A stretch of 26,455 nucleotides of DNA from a virus. Position numbers and translations under genes: made by a program. The stretch lies in IMG/VR virus record IMGVR_UViG_3300017989_005011, positions 1 to 26,455 of that record; one strand, given 5' to 3'. The stretch's first letter is position 1; each line of letters starts with the position of its first letter. Under the pieces are notes generated by a model. It was not told the origin of the DNA. It saw nothing but the letters and a program-made list of their open reading frames with translations, and did not search any database. Of the stretch, positions 1 through 6,786 are shown piece after piece.

Positions 1-105
1 CAGGTGCTGGTTGAGGTTGGACAGGTGCTGGTTGAGGTTGGACAGGTGCTGGTTGAGGTTGGACAGGTGCTGGTTGAGGTTGGACAGGTGCTGGTTGAGG
101 TTGTC
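1..105 (-). repeat. 21-base tandem repeat encoding QPQPAPV heptads
   Basis: Five consecutive 21-base copies, nearly identical (only the last two bases of the copy ending at 105 differ). They continue to the window edge, so the true copy number is unknown. In the frame of the SSB-like gene each copy encodes Gln-Pro-Gln-Pro-Ala-Pro-Val, a likely extended flexible linker. The unit length is a multiple of three, so copy-number changes by slippage would keep the frame. Confidence 0.93.
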
Positions 106-823
106 TAAACGATATCGGAGTCTCTCCTGCAGACTGCGTAGGCGAAGTAGTCTCAGGTTCATCTGCAAAAAGAGCCTGATGGAACGCAGCAGGATCAGGT
201 TTGTCTTGCTCAGCAAAGAGGTCCAGATTTAGATTGTTCAGGAGCTCCAACTCTTCAGGGGTAAGCGGAGAGGGCTGGATCCTACGCTGACCGGCTTCGG
301 CCACAGAATCAAAATCAATACTGTCTCTAGAAGAACTTTGGTGTGCTCTAGTCTGTGCCCTATCAATAATGATATCACAACCTGTTTCTGGATCAGTAAA
401 ATCATACTTCCACACACTAGCTAAGCCTGCCAATTCTCGTAAAAGAGTTTGGGATATCTCTAATACTCTAACGGAGAGATTACCCATAGCATCGGTAGGC
501 TCTGATCGATCAATGCAATACATAATCGCACGAATCTTTGCGGAGGCTTGTTTGGCTCCCTCAGTGTCTCCTGCAGCACCTAACTGCTGCGCCAATAAAC
601 AACCAGGACAATCTACTGTCTCCAAACACAAAGGTGCTCGAGTAAAACCGGACCCACTAACAATCCAATTCTGAAGAAAATGTCTCTTAACAATACGGAA
701 ACCGCTCTCGTCGTCGGGTGCGCAGAGTATCCGAAACTTGTTTTTGCCGGCCTTAAGGAATGCCTTTAACGTGAACTCGGTAACTACTGCATTGACCGCC
801 TGACCAAAAGTTTCTAAATTCAT
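1..823 (-). CDS. gp32-like single-stranded DNA-binding protein, 3' end cut by window edge
   Basis: I translated this by hand from ATG 823; it stays open for about 274 codons to the window edge, so its C-terminus is missing. The N-terminal domain has an FRIL-x-AP strand, then His48, Cys66, Cys72 and Cys75 (pattern H...C-x5-C-x2-C), which matches the zinc-binding arrangement of T4 gp32-type SSBs. A later W-K-Y-D-F-T-D-P-E-T-G-C-D-I segment (residues 138-151) resembles the conserved W..D..D...G.DI strand of phage gp32-like proteins. After residue ~170 it becomes acidic and then enters a proline-rich heptad repeat (QPQPAPV). Its start overlaps the upstream stop by one base (TGATG), with GGAG seven bases before the ATG. 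Known role of the family: coating ssDNA at replication forks. The neighbours (polymerase, possible UvsY-like protein) fit. The family call is by eye only. Confidence 0.62.
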   Translation of the reverse strand, partial: MNLETFGQAVNAVVTEFTLKAFLKAGKNKFRILCAPDDESGFRIVKRHFLQNWIVSGSGFTRAPLCLETVDCPGCLLAQQLGAAGDTEGAKQASAKIRAIMYCIDRSEPTDAMGNLSVRVLEISQTLLRELAGLASVWKYDFTDPETGCDIIIDRAQTRAHQSSSRDSIDFDSVAEAGQRRIQPSPLTPEELELLNNLNLDLFAEQDKPDPAAFHQALFADEPETTSPTQSAGETPISFRQPQPAPVQPQPAPVQPQPAPVQPQPAPVQPQPAP

Positions 824-1377
824 CACATTTCTCCATTACTTTGAAACTTACCAGGTTGCTTAAAACTACAAGGTAGCCCATTGCTACCTGTACTGGCAGG
901 GGTAGACATACCTCCTGCCATATCCATCTCCCTGCGATAATGAGCCCCTAATTGAACACAAGCATCGTGCTTCATTTGAAAAGCACTCAAGATTTGCTTT
1001 AGGAGGCTAACATCTCGCTGGGACAAAAGTATTGCATGGTTGCGCTCTTTATACTCAGGACATAGTGATACGGCAGACTCTATATCCTTTATAGTAGCAC
1101 GTTTTCCTTGTCCTGAAGCAGCCTCGGCCTGAATGACATATTGCTCGTTGTACCAAATTTCATAATCCAACCTTAACATATTAAGTTCGGCAGAAGCTTG
1201 TTCATATACAACACTCCACCAAGAATAACTAGAAGGTAAAGTGGCCATGTGCTCGGTTAGTGTATCTTGGTTTGGAGGCGTTAGTTCTATTCCAATAGAG
1301 TCAGCCCCTTCAATGGCAGAGGCCATCATATCAGATAACATTTTACGTCTGGTAGCTTCTAGCTGAGTTAAAGTCAT
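823..1377 (-). CDS. helical protein, possible UvsY-like recombination mediator
   Basis: A 184-residue protein with ATG 1377 behind a strong AGGAGGAG ribosome binding site. It appears mostly helical: an N-terminal helix (1-25), a Trp/Tyr-rich segment (about 52-80, YSWWSVVYEQA then LRLDYEIWYNEQY), a Lys/Glu-rich middle, and a long C-terminal helix (about 116-150, with RDVSLLKQ and AHYRREMDMA). The last 30 residues look disordered. Size, Y..W helix pattern and C-terminal helix resemble phage UvsY proteins, which load recombinase on SSB-coated DNA. Location between the polymerase and a gp32-like SSB fits that role, since T4 UvsY works with gp32. There is no decisive motif, so this is a context-weighted guess; it could simply be an unrelated helical phage protein. 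Confidence 0.42.
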   Translation of the reverse strand: MTLTQLEATRRKMLSDMMASAIEGADSIGIELTPPNQDTLTEHMATLPSSYSWWSVVYEQASAELNMLRLDYEIWYNEQYVIQAEAASGQGKRATIKDIESAVSLCPEYKERNHAILLSQRDVSLLKQILSAFQMKHDACVQLGAHYRREMDMAGGMSTPASTGSNGLPCSFKQPGKFQSNGEM

Positions 1378-1389
1378 TTCTCCTCCTGG

Positions 1390-4300
1390 CTACTTCCAAT
1401 AATCAAGAATTTCTATATCTGCTTTCAAAGGTACGTTGAACCAAGGCATAGGTCTTAATAATTCGGTTTGCATTATATCAAAACATTCCTCTACTTCTTC
1501 CTCAGGGCTTTCTACTGTAATAGAGTCATGTACTTGTAGAACTGGTTCAGAACGCATACCTTTTGCCCATAAACTTCTTGCAATACGCAACAGTGCAGAA
1601 TTAGTAAGATCTGCGGCCAATGACTGTATAGGAAAGTTAATAGCTTGACGCAGTGCTTCCTCTCGTAACATCCTATCACTACTATGAATATTAGCCAACC
1701 TGCGCCTTCTACCAGTAGCCGTTACTAGCACTTCACCCGCTTCGGCCTTTGCAAGAATCTCGTTACGCCATGCAGCTGCTACAGGAAATCTCGCAAATAA
1801 TCTATCTATGAAATCTTGTGCATCTTCTACAGAAAAGCCAAACTCCTCTGCTAGACTAGCAGCTCCTCTACCATACATAATACCAAACACACAATTATGA
1901 TTTACAAAGAAGGGGCTGCTAAAGGTGTGATCCTCTGTAGTTAGATCGTATACTTGTTGAGTACCTCCGTCCTCTACTCTGACAATCAGTTCATAATGAT
2001 GATCCCCATGATACAACTTACTTATAAAATCTCGGTCTACCTCAGTTAGTAAAGGGGCGAATGAGTGAAGAGCTGTTAAATCAGTTCTGGATGTAATATT
2101 CTTATCCAACAACTGCCTCAGTGCAGAAGCAACACCTTTGGACACGCTAGTAAAATCTAACCTAGCAAAAAAGTTTTGCAGATAGGGAACAAAATCCCAT
2201 TCCCTCTTGTTATCACATAAAATAGCTTCAGGTAATAGGGGAAGTATGACTAATTCATGAGATTCCATGAGTTTAACATCTCGATCATAAAAGAACAAAG
2301 ATGTAGTGTTGTCATTATTTTCTACTACTCCAGGATAAATACCCCAATTAGACAACACAGCAACTAATGAGGATATGATGTTTACTTCAGCACAAACAAG
2401 GAGTGTGTACCCCCACCCAGGGATTCTATCTAAAGATGCAGATGCTAGTGTAGATATGCATGCCTTAACAGCAATCTCGTCCATCTGTAACAGTGGACAA
2501 CTCATAATTCTCAAACGTCTGTCTTCTTTTGAACGTACTTGTACTGTAAAACCTAGATATTCTAGTAGATATAGGTCGCACTCGAATGAGGAGCCGTTTG
2601 GTTCCTTTACAATATCGGCCTGCACTCCCTGTAAGAAATGGCGCTGTCCTTTAGGAACAAAAACGCGAATGTGCTCCCCTGATTCATCTATCCTACCAAA
2701 GCCTAAAATCAAACCTGCTAATCTTGCTTGTTCTACAGATAGTATAGACTGTTTAGGCCACTGTACAAAAGGAGGTCTAAATAACCAATCTCCCTCTTCT
2801 AACTCCTCAACCTTTTTCCAATAAACACCTAGTGGAGTAAAAACTTGTACAGCATGATCTGGAGTAGCACAAAAGGAATAACCATTGAGAGTGGTAATCC
2901 TCTTTGTGTCTTTATATCCTCCATAGTAAGTATGAGTTACTCTAGTAAGACCTTGATCACCCTGCACATATAAATCTTCGTCTAGTTCAAGAAATTCTCC
3001 TTCTTTTTCCGCAAAGGGTAGGGTACCTATAGGTACTATACCTTCTGAAGTGTATATGAGAGTATCAGACGTTACACAAGCTTTAGCTCTTACTCTCATC
3101 TCAGATGCTTCTTTGATACTACCTGAAGGCCAGTCGTCACTTTTCTCTAATTCTAATCTGTGCATGAATTCTTCACGTTCGTTTTCCAAACCATAAACAG
3201 CTATGGCAATCTCTGCGTGAATATCCTCTTCTACTAAAAGTTTGATAAGCTCTTGGTCTCCACTATAAGCAGCCCACGCTCTTACCTCAGCTTGACCATA
3301 ATCTGAGTACAAAAACTTATGACCTTTTGCAGGGACAAAGAATGCTCTTATACCTCCCTTACGTGGTGTATTCTGTAAGTTAGGCCCTCTAGAAGAAAAG
3401 CGACCGGTAACGGTACCATGCTGTAGATAATCAGTGTGTACCAAATGGTTAGCATCTGCCTTCTTCTTGAGACCTACACAATAAGTACTATCTCTCTTGT
3501 GTAGTCGTCGGTACTCTAATAGTAGATCAAACACTGGGTGTTTAGTTCGTTGTTGTAACTTCCTCAAAACCTTTTCATCAGTGGAAGGATTTCCTGCACT
3601 ACTATAACGAACAGGCTTCAAGTCTAACCAATCAAACAAAAAGGCACTCAACTGTTTAGGAGAGCCTACCTTTATAGGAGGAGATGCCTTAAGCGCCATT
3701 TCCCATTTAGTAATACGTTCTTCCCAATGTTTTATGGTCCTATTATACAAGGCTTCTGTGTTAGGGGAAGCATTATTTCTCGCCACTGCATCTTGGTGAT
3801 GTAGTGCATCTATATCACCTGACGCTACTAACCGTGCCTGATTCTGTTTAATCTGTTCTATACGTTGCTTAGCTTCTTCCATATCAGGTAATATACGTGC
3901 CTTATACTGTTGAAACGCTTCTCCTGCTATTTCATTAACTTCATTAACTATACTTTGAATCTGCATGGATAGGTCTTGATGCATTTTATCCAAAGCGTCT
4001 ATATCTACATGTACTCCCTTGCGCTCCATTCTAGCCAATACATCAATCAACGGTACTATCTGTCTTTGATATATGGAAAGTAAGTCTTGCTCTTCTAACA
4101 ATCTTATAAACACGTCATACAACTGACGAGTAGCATCAGCATCACTACACGCATAAGGGGCAAGAATTTCAAAAAAAGGTAAAGCTCCGTAGTTCTTATC
4201 TTCCACAGGAATCTTGAGTTTCTTAACCTTGGCAAACTCTTCTCTAAGTTCTGCATCATAGTCACCAAAACCTAGATATCTGCGGGCAAGAGACTCTAGA

Positions 4301-5277
4301 TCGTGAGGAGAGTTTTCGTCCAATAAATGATGAGCTAGCATGGTATCGAAGGTTACACCATCTAAATCAATATCCAGAGACCAAAGGGCCTTTATGTCGT
4401 ATTTGGCATTTTGAAGAACCTTAGGATAACTACTATCCTCCAAGTACTCCTTAACCAATGGATACACTAAAGACCATTCAGAATCAGACCAATAGGGAAA
4501 ACCTTCTTGTGATATAGGAAAAAACCAAGACTTACCTAACACACTACTACCAGTAATGCACAAAACTTGAAAGTTAGGTATAAAGGTGTCCGTAGAAGTA
4601 GTTTCTGTATCTATAGCAGTTATCTGTCCAGATTTGAACTCTTCAATCATCTGACGTACATCTGTCACAGTTCTTGCTACTATATAGTCAGTCTTTGGCG
4701 CTGTTTGAGTAGCAGTGTAATTAGAATCAATATATACCTTCAGCATGGTCAGAGCTTGCTCTGTGGCTTCTTGTAGATGAGGTTGTCGTAATACATAGGA
4801 GGGATGATAGATAGGTAATACCTTACAACCTAAAGAAGGCAGATCAGTCATTAAACCTTGTTTGCTTGTAATACCTTGAGAACTTATTTTCCCCTTAGCA
4901 TACAACGCATACAAAGCTACATTACCCATAGGAACAATAACCTTACGAGGATATTTCTTGATGAGCTTCATTAGAAAAAGTTCGCGGCAGGTTAATAGAT
5001 CTGTTTCTGTTGGCTTCTTTTTGTTATCAGGTCCTCCCCAACATCGAGCAGCATTGGTTACTAAAATGTCTTTAGTATCTAAGCCTGCATTATCTAGCAT
5101 CTCCCAAAATTTAGCACCCGCAGGACCTAAAAAAGCTCTTCCTTGTTGCTGTTCAACTGCTCCAGGGCTTTCTCCTATAAAAACTATAGGGGCATCTTCC
5201 TCACCTACATTATCAATCTCGTTAGTTCTGGCATCAAAGAAGGAACACTGCTGACAACTTTTATGGCCTGAAGACAT
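1390..5277 (-). CDS. polA: family 4 uracil-DNA glycosylase fused to family A DNA polymerase, interrupted by an intein
   Basis: A 1295-residue precursor (about 900 after splicing). Residues 1-185 are a family 4-type UDG: GESPG (35-39), HPS (158-160), and four Cys (C8, C11, C79, C97) spaced like the Fe-S ligands of that family. Residues ~195-390 are a 3'-5' exonuclease with all expected acids: D213/E215, N290/D294 and Y375-x3-D379. The polymerase domain follows: TGR-FSS (~625-629), motif A DYGQAEVR (659-666), motif B R728...K732, resuming at C1129 with F1131 and Y1135-G, and motif C QVHDS (H1250-D1251-S1252). An intein (residues 734-1128) splits motif B. Oddities: motif C reads HDS, not HDE, and motif A has Ala where Ile is usual. 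ATG 5277 directly abuts the upstream stop, with AGGGAG as ribosome binding site. A UDG-like domain on a phage polymerase is known from SPO1. It should be the phage replicative polymerase. Confidence 0.95.
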   Translation of the reverse strand: MSSGHKSCQQCSFFDARTNEIDNVGEEDAPIVFIGESPGAVEQQQGRAFLGPAGAKFWEMLDNAGLDTKDILVTNAARCWGGPDNKKKPTETDLLTCRELFLMKLIKKYPRKVIVPMGNVALYALYAKGKISSQGITSKQGLMTDLPSLGCKVLPIYHPSYVLRQPHLQEATEQALTMLKVYIDSNYTATQTAPKTDYIVARTVTDVRQMIEEFKSGQITAIDTETTSTDTFIPNFQVLCITGSSVLGKSWFFPISQEGFPYWSDSEWSLVYPLVKEYLEDSSYPKVLQNAKYDIKALWSLDIDLDGVTFDTMLAHHLLDENSPHDLESLARRYLGFGDYDAELREEFAKVKKLKIPVEDKNYGALPFFEILAPYACSDADATRQLYDVFIRLLEEQDLLSIYQRQIVPLIDVLARMERKGVHVDIDALDKMHQDLSMQIQSIVNEVNEIAGEAFQQYKARILPDMEEAKQRIEQIKQNQARLVASGDIDALHHQDAVARNNASPNTEALYNRTIKHWEERITKWEMALKASPPIKVGSPKQLSAFLFDWLDLKPVRYSSAGNPSTDEKVLRKLQQRTKHPVFDLLLEYRRLHKRDSTYCVGLKKKADANHLVHTDYLQHGTVTGRFSSRGPNLQNTPRKGGIRAFFVPAKGHKFLYSDYGQAEVRAWAAYSGDQELIKLLVEEDIHAEIAIAVYGLENEREEFMHRLELEKSDDWPSGSIKEASEMRVRAKACVTSDTLIYTSEGIVPIGTLPFAEKEGEFLELDEDLYVQGDQGLTRVTHTYYGGYKDTKRITTLNGYSFCATPDHAVQVFTPLGVYWKKVEELEEGDWLFRPPFVQWPKQSILSVEQARLAGLILGFGRIDESGEHIRVFVPKGQRHFLQGVQADIVKEPNGSSFECDLYLLEYLGFTVQVRSKEDRRLRIMSCPLLQMDEIAVKACISTLASASLDRIPGWGYTLLVCAEVNIISSLVAVLSNWGIYPGVVENNDNTTSLFFYDRDVKLMESHELVILPLLPEAILCDNKREWDFVPYLQNFFARLDFTSVSKGVASALRQLLDKNITSRTDLTALHSFAPLLTEVDRDFISKLYHGDHHYELIVRVEDGGTQQVYDLTTEDHTFSSPFFVNHNCVFGIMYGRGAASLAEEFGFSVEDAQDFIDRLFARFPVAAAWRNEILAKAEAGEVLVTATGRRRRLANIHSSDRMLREEALRQAINFPIQSLAADLTNSALLRIARSLWAKGMRSEPVLQVHDSITVESPEEEVEECFDIMQTELLRPMPWFNVPLKADIEILDYWK
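1894..3078 (-). mobile_element. intein in polymerase motif B, with eroded LAGLIDADG-like region
   Basis: A 395-codon in-frame insertion. Its first residue is Cys734 (block A, C-V-T-S-D-T-L-I-Y). Block B has TPDH at intein residues 72-75 (the T-x-x-H motif). Block F/G reads YDLTTEDHTFSSPFFVNHN, ending in His-Asn, and the next extein residue is Cys1129. All residues needed for class 1 protein splicing are present. The middle 200 residues exceed mini-intein size and contain LAGLILGFG (intein 120-128), a LAGLIDADG-like helix in which the usual catalytic Asp position holds Phe. A second possible half motif lies near SLDRIPGWGYTLLVC but is weak. I infer a splicing-competent intein whose homing endonuclease has decayed. 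Removing it joins ...RAKA to CVFGIMYG, restoring the polymerase O-helix. Confidence 0.93.
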
Positions 5278-5490
5278 CTACTCTCCCTCTTTCCTGTACA
5301 ACTGCTGTGCCCTTTGATGCTTTCTAATTTGTATAGCTCTTTCCTGTTCCTCTGCTTCCTTTTTAGTAGGATGCCTACCCAATAAGCTATTTCCGTCTTT
5401 AGTAAAAAGACAATACAGTTGTTCCGATCTAGGACGTGTAGGATCGATATCTTTCTCTTGGCACCTACGAATAATAGCAGTGCGCTGCAT
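5278..5490 (-). CDS. small 70-residue phage protein, function unknown
   Basis: I start this at ATG 5490, which has AAGGAG seven bases upstream (5498-5503). A longer reading from GTG 5538 would place an inverted repeat inside the coding region and has no good ribosome binding site. The protein is basic and has an LYCLFTKDGNSLLGRHPTKKEAEEQERAIQ segment, whose order (strand, DG turn, L-G, then T-K-x-E-A helix) resembles small domains of about 30-40 residues often seen in phage and bacterial proteins with no known function. It ends in a charged helix. Its TAG stop directly abuts the polymerase ATG, so the two are probably translationally coupled. Confidence 0.7.
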   Translation of the reverse strand: MQRTAIIRRCQEKDIDPTRPRSEQLYCLFTKDGNSLLGRHPTKKEAEEQERAIQIRKHQRAQQLYRKEGE

Positions 5491-5513
5491 ATAATCTCTC
5501 CTTAGTCTAGTTG

Positions 5514-5553
5514 AATACGGGTTGGCATCTAATAGCACATGTCAACCCGTATT
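5514..5553 (-). repeat. 11-base perfect inverted repeat upstream of the 70-residue gene
   Basis: Arms 5514-5524 and 5543-5553 are perfect complements (on the minus strand AATACGGGTTG ... CAACCCGTATT) around an 18-base loop. The structure sits between the stop at 5574 and the ATG at 5490. No T-run follows it on the minus strand, so it is not a canonical terminator. A TATAAT (5551-5556) overlaps the promoter-proximal arm, but no good -35 lies 17 bases upstream. It could be an mRNA hairpin in read-through transcripts or an operator over a weak start site. Confidence 0.8.
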
Positions 5554-5563
5554 ATATAGGATA

Positions 5564-5573
5564 GTAACGTTAC
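5564..5573. repeat. 10-base perfect palindrome GTAACGTTAC
   Basis: A perfect palindrome directly after the TAG stop of the Pro-Glu repeat gene and about 10 bases from the 11-base inverted repeat. It could be a protein-binding site; it is too short to count as a terminator. Confidence 0.45.
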
Positions 5574-6278
5574 CTAAGTAGTTGTAGGGTCAGCTTCCTC
5601 CTTAACTTCCTCCTTAACTTCCTCCTTAACTTCCTCCTTCGCTACCTTCTTCGCTGCCTTTTCCTCTGCCTTCTGCTTATTTCGCTTTGCAGCATTATCT
5701 GGATGATAATAGCTACTTTCAGGTAGTGCACCTTTATTTTTGAGATGCTGAATACGAATGGATACAGTTTGCATTTCCTTATCCATAGCCGTAGCAATTT
5801 CTCTTGCAGTGCACCCTTCTTCTAGTAGCCTCAAAAGCTCTGGATCCTTGTAGGACAAGTGCTTGCGGGGATCATCAGTTCGAGATTTTGCAGGTTGTTT
5901 TGGTTGTTTCTTCGGCTTTGGAGTTTCCTCAGGTTCTGGAGTTTCCGCAGGTTCTGGAGTTTCCTCAGGTTCTGGAGTTTCCTCAGGTTCTGGAGTTTCC
6001 TCAGGTTCTGGAGTTTCCTCAGGTTCTGGAGTTTCCTCAGGTTCTGTAGTTTCCTCAGGTTCTGGAGTTTCTGCTCCTGCCCCACAAGGAATTTCATTCC
6101 CTTCAGAATCAATTTCGACAATGAATTCAAATTTCCCAGGAACGGTAACATTATTGCCAGTAGCCGCAGAAATGCAAACTACTTTGTCCCCCTCAAACTC
6201 CTTAACGGTTACTACTCGCTGGGTCGATGTCTTGTAGGTTTTTCCTACTTCTGCGTCCTTAGCTTGCATACTCATCAT
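5574..6278 (-). CDS. unknown protein with Pro-Glu repeat linker and C-terminal helix-turn-helix-like domain
   Basis: A 234-residue protein in four parts. Residues 1-60 form a small beta-type module (AEVGKTY...VTVPGKFEFIVE) similar to the start of the gene just upstream. Residues 71-120 are an acidic PEPEET repeat. Residues ~145-183 (DPELLRLLEEGCTAREIATAMDKEMQ and on) look like a helix-turn-helix with an EG-CTAREIA turn, as in small DNA-binding domains. Residues 191-234 are Lys/Glu/Ala rich with three KEEV copies. The gene overlaps its upstream neighbour by 20 bases and has AAAGGA before the ATG. The likely picture is two folded ends tethered by a stiff acidic linker, possibly bridging DNA and a partner. 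The specific function is not recognised. Confidence 0.72.
   Translation of the reverse strand: MMSMQAKDAEVGKTYKTSTQRVVTVKEFEGDKVVCISAATGNNVTVPGKFEFIVEIDSEGNEIPCGAGAETPEPEETTEPEETPEPEETPEPEETPEPEETPEPEETPEPAETPEPEETPKPKKQPKQPAKSRTDDPRKHLSYKDPELLRLLEEGCTAREIATAMDKEMQTVSIRIQHLKNKGALPESSYYHPDNAAKRNKQKAEEKAAKKVAKEEVKEEVKEEVKEEADPTTT
5594..5641 (-). repeat. 12-base tandem repeat encoding KEEV
   Basis: Four tandem copies of CTTCCTCCTTAA (the last one ends differently). They encode the Lys-Glu-Glu-Val stretch near the C-terminus of the Pro-Glu repeat protein. Confidence 0.85.
5920..6063 (-). repeat. 18-base tandem repeat encoding PEPEET linker
   Basis: Eight 18-base copies of GGAGTTTCCTCAGGTTCT with single-base differences (GCAGG in the second copy, GTAGT in the eighth); a ninth copy breaks off after 6064. 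Each encodes a six-residue Pro-Glu unit. It also creates open frames on the other strand and in the other frames, which are artefacts. Confidence 0.92.
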
Positions 6279-6723
6279 TTGTTCCTTTCACCTTTGATTG
6301 TTCAATGAACTCTTCTATTCTTACTGCTAGTTTTTGTACCTTGAGAAACTGAAAAAAAGCATAACAGGCTTGATCTCTCAACTCTTCTATTATCATAGTT
6401 GGTAGATCATTTCTCTTATATCCGTAAGGCCCGTACTCTTTGAGACCCAAGGTCAACCCGTCATGCATCAAACGAATGAATTCTGTAAACTCTTCCTCAT
6501 AAGGAAGAGGCATGGCCTCCAGAGAGTACTCAAATTCCCGCACAAAGCTGAGAGTAGGCGGGACTACTACAATTCCTCCTTTCTCATCTCGACAGAAAAT
6601 ATAATTATCGGTAGGATTACTATCGCACAACACGACTAGCTTTCGTCCATCCTCAGTTATGTAACCCTTTCCTTTTTCTGCCTCTGCTGCCTTTACTACA
6701 CTTATCTCTGTGCTTTTACTCAT
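6259..6723 (-). CDS. unknown 154-residue protein, possible MazG-like helical domain
   Basis: Two parts are visible. Residues ~15-65 form a short beta-type module (EKGKGYITEDGRKLVV ... GIVVVPPTLSFV) that resembles the start of the next gene. Residues ~75-145 are helical with EEEFTEF, a YGPYGYKRND stretch, then EELRDQACYAFFQFLKV. The acid spacing (E-E-x2-E-like and E-x2-D) and the YG...EEL.D..YA..L layout recall all-alpha NTP pyrophosphatases of the MazG type, which many phages encode to clean nucleotide pools. The resemblance is loose and I would not rely on it. The ATG at 6723 lacks a strong ribosome binding site but follows an extended -10 promoter. Confidence 0.6.
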   Translation of the reverse strand: MSKSTEISVVKAAEAEKGKGYITEDGRKLVVLCDSNPTDNYIFCRDEKGGIVVVPPTLSFVREFEYSLEAMPLPYEEEFTEFIRLMHDGLTLGLKEYGPYGYKRNDLPTMIIEELRDQACYAFFQFLKVQKLAVRIEEFIEQSKVKGTNDEYAS

Positions 6724-6749
6724 ATCTTTTCTCTTCGTTTGATATCTTA

Positions 6750-6758
6750 ATTATATCA
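6750..6758 (-). promoter_or_regulatory. extended -10 promoter (TGATATAAT)
   Basis: On the minus strand the site reads TGATATAAT, a perfect extended -10, 27 bases before ATG 6723. The -35 position (TAGAGG) is poor, as is common for extended -10 promoters. It would drive the 154- and 234-residue genes and perhaps those beyond. Confidence 0.5.
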
Positions 6759-6786
6759 TATTTTTCGAAACACCTCTAGGATATTT

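Follow-up and report, generated by a model that had tools for sequence, protein, structure and literature searches.

The polymerase gene of the virus behind IMG/VR record IMGVR_UViG_3300017989_005011 raises the question of whether a large segment lying in its catalytic motif B is an intein and, if so, what this position would mean for the enzyme. The stretch analyzed, here called the window, comprises 26,455 nucleotides (positions 1 to 26,455 of that record). It harbors on its minus strand, where all features of this gene given below are located, an ORF (1390–5277) encoding a family A DNA polymerase precursor of 1295 aa with a UDG family 4-like, a 3'-5' exonuclease, and a polymerase part. Pfam domains were detected for UDG (E 1.9e-24), DNA_pol_A_exo1 (E 6e-20), and DNA_pol_A (PF00476, E 1.4e-84), the last match being split in two by residues 734–1128. 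At the N-terminus, the phage polymerase thus carries a fused family 4-type UDG domain. A second contig, IMGVR_UViG_3300029258_003867, revealed 99.9% DNA identity to window positions 1–6760 over 6.8 kb, with zero mismatches and one gap; the ORF is intact there too, and its protein is 100% identical.

The splitting segment, residues 734–1128 of the precursor (395 aa; 1894–3078), is stop-free in frame from 3078 down to 1894. The sequence-only reading had taken it for an intein, and this identity is corroborated by Pfam Intein_splicing (PF14890, E 8e-11) and NCBIfam TIGR01445 (intein_Nterm, E 4.7e-8, aligned from intein residue 1); since both models pass their curated cut-offs, the match is not due to chance. 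All four signatures named in that reading were found again, namely Cys1 as block A nucleophile (3076–3078), the block B motif T-x-x-H as T72-P-D-H75 (2854–2865), His394-Asn395 at the C-terminal end in block G (1894–1899), and a Cys at the +1 position (precursor Cys1129; 1891–1893). The in-frame junctions could be read from the DNA (..AGAGCTAAAGCT/TGTGTAACG.. to ..GTAAATCATAAT/TGTGTGTTTGGT..) and from the corresponding peptides R-A-K-A/C-V-T-S-D-T and V-N-H-N/C-V-F-G, so that the limits 1894 and 3078 are exact to the base. Together with the matches to the splicing models and the continuous exteins, these residues are those of a class 1 intein, as which the segment can be regarded as confirmed, splicing itself being predicted. 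An AlphaFold model based on a two-row alignment reached a mean pLDDT of 34, and the Hint fold is therefore predicted from the sequence only.

In regard to the insertion site, the N-extein (residues 1–733; 3079–5277) ends with R728-V-R-A-K732-A733, the first half of motif B, and the C-extein (residues 1129–1295 plus stop codon; 1390–1893) starts with the second half, C-V-F-G-I-M-Y-G. Joining both in silico by deletion of the intein led to an intact polymerase of 900 aa displaying the family A motifs D-Y-G-Q-A-E-V-R, R-x3-K-x7-Y-G, and V-H-D-S. The joined exteins aligned with the E. coli Klenow fragment without a gap over the junction (E about 1e-65, AKAC-VFG over AKAI-NFG), and the same gap-free alignment was obtained against the Klenow and Taq structures and against four intein-free phage polymerases. 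Thus, the insertion point separates the equivalents of E. coli Ala759 and Ile760, the latter being the counterpart of the +1 Cys, one residue past Lys758 and before Phe762; this is the numbering of E. coli Pol I, and it is consistent with the chain positions in the Klenow alignment. This point lies inside R-x3-K-x7-Y-G, i.e., in the O-helix. The earlier placement within motif B (R-x3-K-x3-F) therefore holds after extein joining, Klenow alignment, and comparison with phage homologs, and, since 395 residues are placed inside the O-helix, the unspliced precursor can soundly be predicted to be incapable of polymerization.

Could the segment nevertheless belong to the mature enzyme? As a normal inserted domain it would be expected to be in frame and uninterrupted, which it is, but this reading retains next to no probability in view of two intein models exceeding their cut-offs with correct boundaries, an intein anatomy that contradicts it, and the absence of the segment from relatives and solved structures, apart from the fact that such a domain would break the catalytic O-helix. 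A splicing-defective intein, which would leave the polymerase gene dead or make it work otherwise, e.g., by fragment complementation or with the help of a host polymerase, would be in line with the already degenerate endonuclease part described below and with splicing being a prediction from the sequence. This explanation appears very unlikely, though, as every splicing residue is preserved, the second contig carries an identical open frame, and the window and its overlapping contig, both of them fragments, yielded neither a further family A polymerase nor any polymerase of family B or C.

Very probably, then, the segment is a class 1 intein predicted to excise itself post-translationally from the phage family A polymerase. 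According to established intein chemistry, Cys1 would attack its own N-terminal bond, the chain would then be transferred to Cys+1, and cyclization of Asn395 would free the 395-aa intein. Residues 1–733 would thereby be joined to residues 1129–1295, rebuilding the O-helix as R-VRA-K-ACV-F and forming a UDG/exonuclease/polymerase of 900 aa from a precursor presumably unable to bind the incoming nucleotide. That replication depends on splicing, as suggested earlier, is a reasonable assumption based on the sole polymerase detected in two fragmentary records.

The intein itself would be a formerly mobile element whose LAGLIDADG endonuclease has since decayed. The profile alignment extends to intein residue 134 and places a remnant of block C, LAGLILGFG (2695–2721), opposite IAGLYLGDG, so that the acidic residue of intact inteins (..LGDG) is exchanged for Phe. 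A second LAGLIDADG motif was not aligned in the window intein, which thus does not possess two such motifs with catalytic acidic residues, and no endonuclease domain was matched by Pfam; LAGLIDADG_3 was found in the intein of another viral polymerase discussed below (L022, E 2e-9) and, intact, in that of Bacillus phage Eldridge. Based on the replaced acidic residue, the missing second motif, and the lack of a Pfam match, the endonuclease is probably inactive. The intein may have been kept because exact loss is rare and inexact loss destroys the polymerase.

A profile search of viral contigs resulted in 80 loci with related polymerases. Motif B was uninterrupted in most of them, the others being variants overlooked by the strict pattern, and none of the uninterrupted sequences sampled carried an insert at the boundary used in the window. 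At the +1 position, these intein-free motifs had Val, Ile, Thr, Leu, or other residues, never Cys; as one motif B search pattern admitted Val or Cys at this position, the missing Cys is meaningful, and the excess of Val is in part made by the pattern. All three polymerases found with an intein at the boundary of the window, as described in the following, have Cys at +1, matching the requirement of the chemistry. An intein-free close relative (>40% identity) was not found in the viral contigs, where the nearest polymerases were about 30–38% identical; the search there for close relatives of the window and L022 polymerases returned self-copies only and no near empty allele.

C-junctions at the same site were sought with a DNA pattern encoding HN/(C/S)-x-F-G-h-x-Y-G, and two unrelated viral polymerases were recovered with an intein at exactly the boundary of the window, namely IMGVR_UViG_3300004774_000004 (L022) and IMGVR_UViG_2546826722_000003 (G002). 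Their junctions are R-KAA-K-V/C..HN/C-N-F-G (in three 100% identical contigs) and R-KHA-K-G/C..HN/C-N-F-G, respectively, and in all three polymerases the junction lies six residues from the motif B Arg (R+6). The L022 intein shares the R-x3-K-x/C-x-F boundary, HN, and Cys+1 with that of the window but, unlike the latter, has an intact-looking LAGLIDADG endonuclease. The G002 intein, likewise with the same boundary, HN, and Cys+1, differs in being related to that of phage APSE-1 and in having a second ORF in another frame. This ORF of 262 aa (in locus L066) overlaps the intein and is HNH-like by eye, with no Pfam match; in APSE-1, an ORF annotated as HNH endonuclease also overlaps the intein region. 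Further patterns yielded no polymerase: an N-junction pattern (R-x3-K-A-C-x-x-G-D-T) had six viral matches, the C-junction pattern had 34 matches in bacterial and archaeal genomes whose reading frames were inspected, and the C-junction pattern with Thr or Ser (TCN) at +1 matched no polymerase either.

A different kind of interruption was seen in IMGVR_UViG_3300027851_000017 (L024/L067), where polA is split at the same motif B codons, the first part ending with ..K-A-I and the second resuming with ..T-F-G. Between the two parts, a group I intron model matched with 31 bits versus a gathering threshold of 50 (E 1.4e-5); none of the three sequences searched (window, L022, and L024) had an intron passing the Rfam gathering threshold. 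The most economical joint, in which the 5' exon ends with T and the intron with G, falls inside the adjoining codon, two bases from the intein boundary; this interruption is probably a group I intron with its joint placed on these grounds. The putative intron contains a nuclease-like ORF. Locus L142 was rejected as a motif B split, as its motif B is intact and the interruption is located elsewhere.

The inteins sharing this boundary do not seem to share one origin. The G002 intein is nearest to that of APSE-1 (blastp E 1e-18), which occupies a different site in the polymerase gene, and in a tree from an alignment of only 127 columns this pair was supported with 97/97. A single clade of the window, L022, and G002 inteins was rejected (p-AU 9.7e-5); a tree with window and L022 as the sole pair was not rejected (p 0.153), with a very long branch for L022. 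The rejection of the three-intein clade and the pairing of G002 with APSE-1 thus support the view that this motif B boundary was entered on two or more separate occasions. With the same or nearby boundaries occupied by unrelated inteins and a probable intron, motif B is, judged from these predicted elements, a recurrent target of mobile splicing elements. Repeated landing on its codons may be explained by DNA conservation among phages, together with the lethality of harmful deletions there.

Three more in-frame intein-like inserts were identified in IMGVR_UViG_3300029258_003867 (L149:1772–3295, L149:8768–12052, and L150:3442–5997). They concern RecA (GVMYG/CFHGDSG..NVHN/SPETTPGG; Hint E 8.6e-4, under the cut-off), a class II ribonucleotide reductase (NP/CIAEGT..VVHN/CSEAV; Intein_splicing E 2.5e-9), and a terminase-like ORF (MDES/CLAPKT..IVHN/SAFTSDG; E 7e-23), whose name (TerL) derives from sequence features read by eye, since there was no Pfam terminase match. 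Splicing might also be conditional, so that the polymerase intein, perhaps together with these other inserts, would act as a post-translational switch keeping the polymerase off until conditions are suitable and responding, e.g., to redox state or temperature via Cys1 and Cys+1. The chemistry of these two residues is redox-sensitive in principle, the insertion site would render the precursor inactive, and RecA, class II ribonucleotide reductase, and TerL are enzymes of DNA metabolism and packaging. However, phage inteins favor catalytic sites of DNA-metabolism genes (PMC5050341; PMC2814812), and ordinary selfish inteins would predict the same distribution over conserved sites of such genes. 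As no sensing element is visible in the sequence either, we consider a switch unlikely. Decidedly improbable as a whole is the wider proposal that motif B is a hot spot with independent arrivals of unrelated inteins, and probably also of a group I intron, at one codon or very close to it, and that, in addition, the four inteins of polymerase, RecA, ribonucleotide reductase, and terminase jointly gate DNA synthesis and packaging post-translationally; the joint gating is speculation.

Apart from the inserts, the phage genome displayed several other features. In the overlapping contig, a LAGLIDADG_2 endonuclease is fused in frame with a 6-pyruvoyl tetrahydropterin synthase (QueD-like) domain (L149:12078–13937), followed by a second PTPS ORF; QueC and a radical SAM protein are encoded nearby. 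Tandem repeats in the window (1–105 and 5574–6278) code for PQPAPVQ-like and PEPEETPEPEET stretches; the repeat at 1–105 is part of an ORF that runs on into the overlapping contig (L149:636–1724). An unusual block for a phage (window 17553–26211) consists of a run of glycosyltransferase genes with genes for a methyltransferase and a B12-binding radical SAM protein.

Returning to the class 1 intein of the polymerase, its value lies in an insertion boundary mapped exactly in a textbook catalytic helix, one apparently entered by two or more unrelated lineages of inteins and, two bases off, by a probable intron. The question of what draws mobile splicing elements to catalytic codons can thereby be tested in a gene for which many structures are available, and a polymerase active only upon splicing would suggest itself as a switchable DNA polymerase.

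Among known systems, motif B is also interrupted in isolate phages. With the G002 intein as query, 28 phage records were matched, among which motif B inteins were located at R-x3-K-x4-A/(C/S)-G-(Y/F)-G, four residues beyond the boundary of the window, in Gardnerella phage vB_Gva_AB1, Streptococcus phages PhiSdyV1524, Javan113, and Javan422, Ruminococcus phage NatCom_29429, EBPR siphovirus 2, and Vibrio phage 97.13. These seven carry a class 1 motif B intein like that of the window, but in a different polymerase clade and at the +4 site; such genes are annotated as DNA polymerase, as hypothetical protein, or not at all. PHROG family 5995 (DNA polymerase, 236 positions) starts at precursor residue 1130 (about nt 1890), one past the +1 Cys, a start which hints that polymerase halves broken at motif B might be common in phages. 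As to whether the exact site was known, which the sequence-only reading had left open, the boundary is occupied in L022 and G002 and a neighboring one in the isolate phages, but no paper describing it was found: an intein at Ala759/Ile760 of a family A polymerase is not described in the literature searched, subscription journals and InBase being outside its scope, and we make no claim to a first report.

Other polymerase inteins lie outside motif B. In APSE-1 P45, cited for a listed bacteriophage DNA polymerase I intein (PMC549080), and in Caulobacter phage GB2A, the intein is inserted at the Q-helix motif (/C-E-N-(I/V)-x-Q) instead, and that of Shewanella phage SFCi1 lies near this site. The inteins of Bacillus phages Eldridge and fHSPT3 have an N-terminal splicing region similar to that of the window (E about 1e-10) but are inserted before T-(S/T)-R-L-(A/S), in the region of E. 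coli Thr666; in the Eldridge paper, the polymerase is described as free of introns and frameshifts, and an intein is not mentioned (PMC4841150). A further polymerase intein (L106:3432–7151) follows T-G-R-L and precedes S-C-K-S-P-N-L-Q-N, near the SPO1 intron site, which was placed between Asn675 and Leu676 (PMC2814812). Altogether, the predicted inteins of phage family A polymerases occupy at least six boundaries in three catalytic regions. Group I introns in the same gene (SPO1, Bastille, and Pf-WMP3; phiL7; phi-I and W31) likewise use conserved sites but splice at the RNA level, and the published ones, at E. coli positions 674, 676, and 881 (PMC3428280), are none of them in motif B. The intein of the window is thus a new example of its kind, and not an unprecedented one, since unrelated phages already have inteins there or close by.
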